Shown: positions 28,638 to 54,678 of the stretch, in pieces | Layout: every line of letters begins with the position of its first letter | Position numbering within the stretch: position 1 is the stretch's first letter | DNA from: Actinomycetota bacterium | Lineage (GTDB): Bacteria > Actinomycetota > Rubrobacteria > Rubrobacterales > Rubrobacteraceae | Assembly: GCA_902810695.1 (NCBI GenBank) | Contig: CADDYV010000011.1 | Location: 1-64,000 of the forward strand | DNA: 64,000 nt | Reading direction: 5' to 3' | Made by a program: the position numbers and the translations under genes | Notes under the pieces: model-generated | What the model saw: only the letters and a program-made list of their open reading frames with translations | Told to the model about the DNA's origin: nothing | Database searches by the model: none

Positions 28638-28985
28638 TCATCTTGAAGAAGAGCCGGACTCTGCCAGAGTCCGGCTCTTCTTGTTGGTCCGTTTTCTGCT
28701 CTTCAGCGCTTTCAGTGTCCTATCTGCCAGGACCTTCCGTGGGAAAGCTTCAGAGGGGGGTTTCTTTTTCTCTCCTTCCGGGTGTCGCAATACCTTCGGT
28801 TCGGCGCTTCGCTCGTCGGTAAGACGCGCCTTCTCTTTCGCCTGTGAACTCATACTGAACCTCGAGTAGAGGCGGCGGGCAGAGGCGCCGCAGGATGGGC
28901 AGCGTGCTGACTCTGCGCCTTCCCCGAGGGCGCGGCGTTGCTCGAAGGGTCCGCAATCGTCGCATAAATACTCGTAGTACGGCAT
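28638..28985 (-). CDS. FmdB-family zinc-ribbon protein
   Basis: A 115-residue protein. Its N-terminal 45 residues form the FmdB/CxxC zinc ribbon (MPYYEYLCDDCG, ARCPSCGASARR), followed by a basic, lysine-rich tail. FmdB is known from the Methylophilus formamidase locus, where it is linked to fmdA expression. Here too it is divergent from a formamidase gene, sharing a 104-base promoter region. The C-terminal codons form the terminator of the converging PfpI gene. Confidence 0.85.
   Translation of the reverse strand: MPYYEYLCDDCGPFEQRRALGEGAESARCPSCGASARRLYSRFSMSSQAKEKARLTDERSAEPKVLRHPEGEKKKPPSEAFPRKVLADRTLKALKSRKRTNKKSRTLAESGSSSR
28646..28682. terminator. Bidirectional terminator hairpin
   Basis: Perfect 16-base arms (28646-28661 and 28667-28682) enclose a five-base loop. 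The arms start AAGAAGAGCC and end GGCTCTTCTT, so either strand offers a T-rich tail. It ends the PfpI transcript, and its sequence also encodes the last residues of the opposing FmdB-type gene. Confidence 0.8.
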
Positions 28986-30364: not shown

Positions 30365-30392
30365 AAAGGGGCGGCACCGGTGCCGCCCCTTT
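30365..30392. terminator. Bidirectional terminator palindrome
   Basis: A 28-base perfect palindrome with arms reading AAAGGGGCGGCACC lies between the convergent formamidase and pterin dehydratase genes. It has A-rich and T-rich flanks, so it can stop transcription from both sides. Confidence 0.75.
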
Positions 30393-52801: not shown

Positions 52802-54055
52802 ATGACGGAAACCACTGAAAAAACTTCCCGGGCGCTGACCATGAAAGACTTCTTTCGGGAGGAGAACGGGGAGATAGTCCCCATAGATGAGAGCGTCCTG
52901 ATGGACTTCAGCGACGGGGACATAGTCGAGGGCGACATCGTCAGAATAGACAAGGACGAGGTCCTCGTTGACATCGGATACAAGTCGGAGGGGATCATCC
53001 CGGCCAACGAGCTTTCCATCCGCAAGGGCGTGGACCCGCAGGAGGTCGTGGAGCTCGGCCAGCACATCGAGGCGCTGGTGATGCAGAAAGAGGATGCCGA
53101 CGGACGGCTGGTTCTCTCCGCCAAGCGCGCCGCCTTCGAGCGGGCCTGGAATCGCATAGAGGAAGCATACTCCGAGCAGCGCACCGTCGAGGGACCGGTT
53201 ATCGAGGTGGTCAAGGGAGGTTTGATCCTTGACATCGGCCTGCGGGGCTTTTTGCCGGCCAGCCTGGTGGACATCCGCAGGGTTAGGGATCTGGACTCCT
53301 TCCTCGGCCAGAAGCTCGAGTGTAAGGTCATAGAGCTGAACCGCAGCCGCAACAACGTTGTCCTCAGCCGGCGGGCGGTGCTCGAAGAGGAGCGCAAGGA
53401 GGAGCGCGAGAAGATCCTCACCTCGCTGCACGAAGGCGAGGTAGTCAAGGGCACGGTCTCCAACCTGGTTGACTTCGGAGCGTTCGTGGACCTCGACGGC
53501 ATTGACGGTCTGATCCACATCTCCGAGCTCTCCTGGAACCACGTGGACCATCCGAGCGAGGTGGTTCACGTTGGAGAAGAGGTAGAGGTCAAGGTCCTGG
53601 AAGTGGACCAGGATCGGGAGCGGATCTCCCTCGGCCTCAAGCAGACGCGCAGGGACCCGTGGCAGGAGATCGTGGAGCGGGTCAAGGTCGGAGAGACGAT
53701 CCACGGTCGGGTCACCAAGCTGGTCTCCTTCGGGGCTTTCGTCGAGGTTGCCGAGGGCGTCGAGGGTTTGATCCACATCTCCGAGCTTGCCGAGCACCAC
53801 GTCGAGACTCCGGGCGAGGTAGTGCGCAGCGGCGACGAGGTGGACGCCCGGATCATTGATGTGGATCCCAAGCGGCGTCGGCTCTCTCTCAGCCTGCGGC
53901 CCAAGAGAGAGGAGCGCGAGGAGGAGCACCGGCCCCGCCGCGAGGAGCGCGAGGAGCGCCCCCGCCGCGACCGTGACCGCCAGCCTCGCGAGGGCGGTAT
54001 CAGGACCGCCGGAGCCTTCGACCAGCTTTCGGACCTGGATCTGGAACGAGAGTAA
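52802..54055 (+). CDS. rpsA: 30S ribosomal protein S1
   Basis: A 417-residue protein with four S1 RNA-binding domains (starting near GDIVEGDIVRID, EGPVIEVVKGGLIL, EGEVVKGTVSNLVDFGAF and VGETIHGRVTKLVSFGAF). The four-domain form is usual in Gram-positives; E. coli has six. It ends in an Arg/Glu-rich tail (EEREEEHRPRREERE). It helps the ribosome load mRNAs. A strong hairpin follows the stop. Confidence 0.94.
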   Translation: MTETTEKTSRALTMKDFFREENGEIVPIDESVLMDFSDGDIVEGDIVRIDKDEVLVDIGYKSEGIIPANELSIRKGVDPQEVVELGQHIEALVMQKEDADGRLVLSAKRAAFERAWNRIEEAYSEQRTVEGPVIEVVKGGLILDIGLRGFLPASLVDIRRVRDLDSFLGQKLECKVIELNRSRNNVVLSRRAVLEEERKEEREKILTSLHEGEVVKGTVSNLVDFGAFVDLDGIDGLIHISELSWNHVDHPSEVVHVGEEVEVKVLEVDQDRERISLGLKQTRRDPWQEIVERVKVGETIHGRVTKLVSFGAFVEVAEGVEGLIHISELAEHHVETPGEVVRSGDEVDARIIDVDPKRRRLSLSLRPKREEREEEHRPRREEREERPRRDRDRQPREGGIRTAGAFDQLSDLDLERE

Positions 54056-54078
54056 CGCACACCTCTCAAGGACTCAAA

Positions 54079-54113
54079 AAAGGGCCGGTAACCGTGGCGG
54101 TTACCGGCCCTTT
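54079..54113 (+). terminator. Perfect 16-bp hairpin overlapping the coaE start codon
   Basis: Arms 54079-54094 and 54098-54113 (AAAGGGCCGG... and ...CCGGCCCTTT) pair perfectly around the loop TGG. An A-run precedes it and only a short T-run follows. It looks like the rpsA terminator, yet the GTG start codon of coaE begins at 54094, at the loop, and the right arm encodes coaE residues 2-6. Confidence 0.6.
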
Positions 54114-54678
54114 GGCGTGCGGGAAGAGCACCTTCGTCCACATGCTCGCTTCTCTGGGAGCCGAGAGCGTCTCCTCGGATGAGATCGTCCACACCCTGCT
54201 CGCCGATGATTCCGAGACCGCCATCCGCGTCGCCGAACGCTTTGGTGAACACGTGCGGGGCGAGCGGGGCATAGACCGCAAAGCACTCGGAAAAGAGGTC
54301 TTCGGAAACCCGGAAGCTCTCAACGATCTCGAACGTATCTTGCACCCGCTGGTGCGCCGGGAGACCGACCGCAGGATAAAAAGCTCCGATGCCGAAGTAT
54401 TTGTCGCCGAGATTCCTCTTCTGTTCGAGAGCGGGCGTGAGAGCGACTTCGACGTTACGGTCGCGGTGGTCGCGCCGGAGAAACGACGGCGGGCCTGGGC
54501 CGAGGAGCGTGGAATCGGCGAGGACCGGTGGCAGGCCATAGAAGAGCGTCAGTTCTATGGAGAAGAGAAAGCGCGCCGCGCCGACCTGGTAGTACAAAAT
54601 GATGCAGGCAAAGATAAACTTATGGAGCAGGCCAGAGATGTATGGAGTACGGTCCTGAGAGGAGGGTTCGGACGGTAA
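54094..54678 (+). CDS. coaE: Dephospho-CoA kinase
   Basis: A 194-residue enzyme for the last step of coenzyme A synthesis. The P-loop is TGPLACGKST (usually TGGIGSGKS), followed by SSDEIVHTLL, HPLVRRE and VAEIPLLFESG. GTG 54094 gives the expected few residues before the P-loop, and no other start fits. This start lies in the loop of a 16-bp hairpin, which may reduce or regulate translation. It overlaps the transglycosylase gene by 37 bases. Confidence 0.92.
   Translation: MAVTGPLACGKSTFVHMLASLGAESVSSDEIVHTLLADDSETAIRVAERFGEHVRGERGIDRKALGKEVFGNPEALNDLERILHPLVRRETDRRIKSSDAEVFVAEIPLLFESGRESDFDVTVAVVAPEKRRRAWAEERGIGEDRWQAIEERQFYGEEKARRADLVVQNDAGKDKLMEQARDVWSTVLRGGFGR

Follow-up and report, generated by a model that had tools for sequence, protein, structure and literature searches.

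The window, i.e. the whole stretch of 64,000 nucleotides that was analysed, carries on its plus strand a gene series consisting of polA (which we take it to be from the sequence of its ORF), rpsA for ribosomal protein S1, coaE for dephospho-CoA kinase, a protein essential in bacteria, and a transglycosylase-like gene. The rpsA stop codon is followed after 23 nt by a hairpin spanning the rpsA–coaE junction (54079–54113) and after 32 nt by the position (54088) at which coaE starts in related genomes. The features of the junction are collected in Table 1. If the transglycosylase-like gene is given its longest ORF, it shares 37 nt with the far end of coaE (54642–54678), and its true start may be further downstream.

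Table 1: Features of the rpsA–coaE junction in the window.
Feature	Position	Strand	Basis or remark
rpsA, ribosomal protein S1 (S1 domains)	52802..54055	+	Pfam S1, E 5.7e-75; ORF list
rpsA stop codon TAA	54053–54055	+	
Untranslated spacer, rpsA stop to stem	54056..54078	+	23 nt in the window; 15–38 nt across 32 genomes
Left arm; its foot AAAGGG is a Shine–Dalgarno-like purine run	54079..54094	+	hairpin fold; arms re-checked
GTA at the GTG-start position of 31 relatives; start apparently lost here	54088..54090	+	alignment of 32 genomes
coaE, dephospho-CoA kinase	54094..54678	+	Pfam CoaE, E 6.4e-35
Predicted GTG start of coaE here, formed by the last base of the stem and the first two of the loop	54094..54096	+	no other in-frame ATG/GTG/TTG ahead of the P-loop
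Loop	54095..54097	+	hairpin fold
Right arm; coding for the first P-loop residues of CoaE (A V T G P)	54098..54113	+	hairpin fold; codon analysis
T pairing with A54090, C in 30 of 31 other genomes; compensatory change matching the loss of the start codon	54102	+	alignment

The junction hairpin is perfect, with 16 Watson–Crick pairs and a loop of three nucleotides, as had been described in a first-pass annotation of this DNA, and it exceeds chance expectation: the 81 nt around it fold with −40.2 kcal/mol against a mean of −25.8 kcal/mol for shuffled sequences (z = −4.25), and none of 200 shuffles was as good. The same annotation had placed the GTG of coaE on the last base of the left arm and the following loop bases, which holds, but the residues encoded by the right arm are 2 to 7 (with residues 2 and 7 only in part) instead of the 2–6 given there. 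Perfect hairpins of at least 13 bp occur only twice in the 64 kb window, at the junction and at 28646–28682, and a search of positions 53900–54300 with the Rfam covariance models gave no matches at E-values up to 5. The hairpin at 28646–28682 has 17 perfect pairs, lies 25 nt past a plus-strand gene call, ends in CTCTTCTTGTTGG and resembles an ordinary terminator. Terminator-like as well is a 12-bp hairpin with a pyrimidine-rich tail at 30365–30392, located between convergent gene calls.

A protein search gave a coaE match for 33 of the 39 family genomes, that of the window included, and a wider search of the class gave no genomes beyond the same 39. The six family genomes without a coaE match are also without a full-length rpsA match, suggesting gaps in their assemblies. 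L026 was left out of all junction counts as its contig ends within the left arm. In all 32 readable genomes of this Rubrobacteraceae-type family, including Rubrobacter marinus SCSIO 52915 (L012), the hairpin is present at the same place of the rpsA–coaE junction. These 32 stems show 11–18 unbroken pairs and energies between −18.0 and −38.7 kcal/mol, the weakest of them being that of L009 on the minus strand with 11 bp, −18 kcal/mol and one A·C mismatch. The rpsA gene of L009 has a different, longer C-terminus, and its stop codon is the nearest to the stem of all (15 nt). Two batches with together 40 regions, 3 from the family and 37 from an outgroup of other families of the phylum, were also compared, and the start of CoaE was recognised by our script in 33 of the 37 outgroup regions (not in L045, L046, L070 and L071). 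None of these 33 junctions carries the family stem as judged by inspection of sequences and folds, and an S1-like ORF is usually present upstream of coaE; the gene order is thus the older feature, to which this lineage has added the hairpin. One outgroup region (L067, around base 1541) has an unrelated 10-bp hairpin, GGGGATCCGC...GCGGATCTTC, at the start of coaE with a GTG in its loop. Since the covariance model of the element also matches generic GC-rich hairpins outside the family with up to 49 bits, it identifies the element only in combination with its place.

Counted from the G of the family GTG (54088 in the window), base i pairs with base 16−i. The left arm of the family comprises the last approximately nine untranslated bases and GTG ACC, and the right arm is GTC ACC GGC CCN, where the P-loop begins (V T G P). 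In 31 of the 32 genomes the GTG is found at position 0 inside the left arm, the window being the exception, and the predicted probability of this position being unpaired is 0.000–0.001 in all 32. At its foot the left arm carries a Shine–Dalgarno-like run, as scored against an anti-Shine–Dalgarno sequence. An in-frame ATG, GTG or TTG within 60 nt upstream is absent from 16 of the 32 genomes, namely the window and 15 of the 31 others. As there is no such upstream start in these genomes and the arms covary (see below), the suggestion of the first-pass annotation that the hairpin would hide the start codon if it forms in the mRNA is well supported as anatomy. An upstream coaE start and arms that do not covary were the two findings which that annotation had named as refuting its idea, and neither was observed. 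Among 319 called gene starts in 464 kb (400 kb of R. marinus plus the window, whose own coaE is not counted as the gene caller did not call it), coaE of R. marinus ranks first for start-covering pairing, and only one other start has at least 11 Watson–Crick pairs over it.

Across 15 pairs and 29 distinct rows the arms are paired in 96.3% of 435 cells. Two-sided changes were found in six of the 15 pairs, and another six never vary and are therefore uninformative for pairing. In 500 shuffles neither the pairing nor the number of two-sided changes was ever as high as observed, slid-partner controls brought the pairing down to 31–52%, and RNAalifold predicts exactly the junction stem. Because related genomes are not independent, we simulated unlinked columns along the coaE plus rpsA tree, and the variable pairs showed 272 of 288 paired cells against 245.7 expected (one of 300 simulations as high) and 36 two-sided cells against 8.7 expected (none of 300 as high), so that the covariation in relatives which the first-pass annotation had named as a check of its idea is indeed present. 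For the paired cells single pairs are mostly non-significant alone and it is their sum that is significant, and a tree-based independent-pairs test was non-significant with only 4–5 supported contrasts and some slid controls being similar. Parsimony places two-sided changes at (−8,24), (−7,23), (−5,21), (−4,20), (2,14) and (5,11), several of them recurring on separate branches, and many join an untranslated base with a synonymous codon position. In three genomes the proline of the right arm is replaced by serine (L019, L033 and L034), accompanied by a matching A in the left arm of L019 and L034 and by a G·U pair in L033.

The codons of the right arm are chosen in a narrow way. Thr6 is encoded by ACC in 29 of 29 cases (46% of the Thr codons of the gene), GTG is never used for Val5 and GGG never for Gly7, the two making up 42% of the Val and 40% of the Gly codons of the gene, and all 27 cases of Pro8 are CCT or CCC and never CCG, the codon of 68% of its prolines. 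The right arm thus shuns the codons that are most frequent for Val, Gly and Pro. Codons 13 and 14, which lie past the stem, are biased too, and codon bias alone is thus no proof. The near-identical L014 and L023 were excluded from this test as well as from the competing-helix, G·U/A·C and spacer tests. It is hardly credible that the peptide PVTxxVTG alone creates the inverted repeat, even if the coding sequence of a biotin-carboxylase-like gene does produce the same core: one half of the left arm precedes the start, the 16 genomes mentioned above offer no in-frame start within 60 nt upstream, and synonymous and untranslated bases covary, so that such a coding coincidence appears already disfavoured by these tests. 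In L104 and L105, both of genus g9, the core CCGGTGACCATCTCGGTCACCGG is found at bases 1501–1523 opposite the codons for P-V-T-E-M-V-T-G of the biotin-carboxylase-like gene, where it is a coding coincidence.

A palindrome acting as DNA is expected to treat G·T and A·C mismatches alike. The inner pairs of the stem contain 2 A·C against 14.9 expected and 15 G·U against 27.2 expected, and the lowest A·C count in 2000 permutations was 8. This stronger depletion of A·C favours an element that acts as RNA of the coding strand, and a strand-symmetric constraint on the sequence, as for a DNA operator, was not found. A palindromic operator bound by a regulator would fit the core CCGGTGAC...GTCACCGG, which is nearly invariant in sequence, but the pairs of the foot covary freely, A·C mismatches are avoided far more than G·T, and second genomic copies in genus g9 sit within the coding region of the biotin-carboxylase-like gene, which makes an operator very unlikely.

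In the window the GTG at position 0 has changed to GTA and its partner codon GTC to GTT, by which a G–C pair became A–U and the pairing was kept. The start of coaE has apparently moved two codons downstream, into the loop; GTG at +6 is also present in four other genomes, each of which has a GTG at position 0 as well. The lineage of the window has thus retained the stem although it abandoned the start codon of its ancestors, and the structure has outlived the start codon here. The left arm also contains a TGA (54089–54091; TAA in the window) that overlaps the family start as GTGA, and the rpsA frame past its own stop is in phase with it in 27 of the 32 genomes. Readthrough of the rpsA stop into this TGA or TAA was considered and rejected, with the frame fitting in these 27 genomes and being broken in five.

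The possibility raised at first that the hairpin terminates rpsA transcripts is not borne out. A GC-rich hairpin as in an intrinsic (Rho-independent) terminator is present in all 32 genomes, and the eight bases past the stem contain at most four T in all 32, mostly one, and one in the window; as these tails are not U-rich, a canonical terminator is unsupported. The stem might also serve the 3′ end of rpsA by blocking exonucleases or by ending transcription without a U-tract, with more rpsA than coaE mRNA as the result, and this would explain its conservation and suits its location 15–38 nt past rpsA in all 32 genomes. We regard this as improbable given the T-poor tails, as the RNA polymerase of mycobacteria reportedly requires a U-tract (by the title of a 2014 paper), and as the centring of the stem on the Shine–Dalgarno run and the start codon would be left unexplained.

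We therefore favour, with a probability of roughly 0.7, that a conserved RNA stem-loop in the rpsA–coaE messenger sequesters the Shine–Dalgarno run and the start of coaE and holds coaE translation below that of rpsA. The start and the Shine–Dalgarno run are predicted to be paired and the pairing is under selection, as would be expected for a start-site-sequestering hairpin, and with both of them paired a translational reading is the most economical one. The stem would pair the Shine–Dalgarno run and start region of coaE with coaE's own first codons; when folded it would shut the start, ribosomes would enter only during transient opening, and far less CoaE than S1 would thus be made from the shared transcript. 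The two genes are probably co-transcribed, the hairpin would be expected to lower coaE translation, and this may be useful as S1 is presumably needed in bulk and CoaE in small amounts. As to an internal promoter, a −10-like TANNNT was found between −22 and −6 in none of the 32 genomes and between −70 and −6 in three. Two points speak against such a brake: a simple brake would not require a stem as strong as approximately −30 kcal/mol, and the same covariation would be expected from an RNA element serving the 3′ end of rpsA.

With a strong hairpin that apparently covers the translation start the cell must have some means of opening the stem. One possibility, tentative and in our view rather unlikely, is a coupling device in which coaE depends wholly on ribosomes fresh from rpsA, so that the outputs of both genes are matched, either because 70S or 30S particles scan across the spacer or because S1 helps to melt the stem. 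The conserved order of rpsA and coaE and the short gap between them (19–49 nt) would suit coupling. A ribosome covers approximately 12–15 nt beyond the stop codon. The stem begins 15–38 nt, mostly 25–32 nt, past the rpsA stop, and with this footprint a ribosome that terminates on rpsA would probably fall short of the stem; in addition the spacer is neither especially unpaired nor U-rich, and a mini-ORF bridging it is found in one clade only (3 of 32 genomes). A review describes RBS-sequestering structures for several coupled pairs, with E. coli rpmI-rplT at +52 nt, and states that coupling weakens with distance (PMC12548453).

Besides the bridging mini-ORF, other candidates were rejected. The spacer gave no sign of a standby or S1 site, as it is unpaired to 0.42 against 0.43 in shuffles, is above the control in 13 of 30 genomes and contains 10% T. 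For a bistable switch or riboswitch with a competing upstream helix the mean z was −0.23 over 30 genomes, though some looked suggestive by eye. This leaves as routes into coaE translation scanning, transient opening and co-transcriptional entry. The last of these could amount to a kinetic gate that opens once per transcript, with the coaE start being usable only from the time it leaves RNA polymerase until the right arm is made, an idea that we consider a long shot. If true, only the ribosome trailing the polymerase through rpsA could enter coaE, CoaE would be made in proportion to rpsA transcripts and not to rpsA translation, and the shift of the start into the loop with compensated pairing in the window would be a natural second solution.

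Under the sequestering stem-loop that we favour, the start of coaE would be locked in a stem of approximately −30 kcal/mol throughout the family, with one lineage having kept the stem while losing the start codon. The hairpin offers a compact natural test case for ribosome entry at a strongly closed start, and it illustrates clearly how synonymous codons can come under selection via RNA pairing across the boundary of untranslated and coding sequence. A search of the available literature gave no paper joining Rubrobacter and coaE, nor Rubrobacter, RNA motif and covariation.

Several known systems are similar in part. In the mgtC-mgtB intergenic region, stem-loops control the downstream start as proposed here and, according to PMC8092293, are opened by the small ORF mgtQ, whereas the coaE junction has neither a conserved small ORF (3 of 32, one clade) nor an alternative upstream pairing. 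Structured mRNAs such as rpsO, which PMC3858243 describes as melted by S1 on the 30S subunit, likewise have their start region within a structure that needs active unfolding, but the coaE element is a plain hairpin and not a pseudoknot, and a role of S1 is putative. With coupled pairs of the rpmI-rplT type, as presented in PMC12548453 cited above, the junction would share a ribosomal-protein operon, a hidden downstream RBS and a stop and start that are tens of nucleotides apart, and it differs in that the coaE stem does not overlap the upstream gene, that the start codon itself is in the stem and that coupling is putative. The nearest described kind thus appears to be the intercistronic RBS-sequestering structures of coupled pairs, among which the coaE hairpin would belong by its working, with the coupling as a putative feature.
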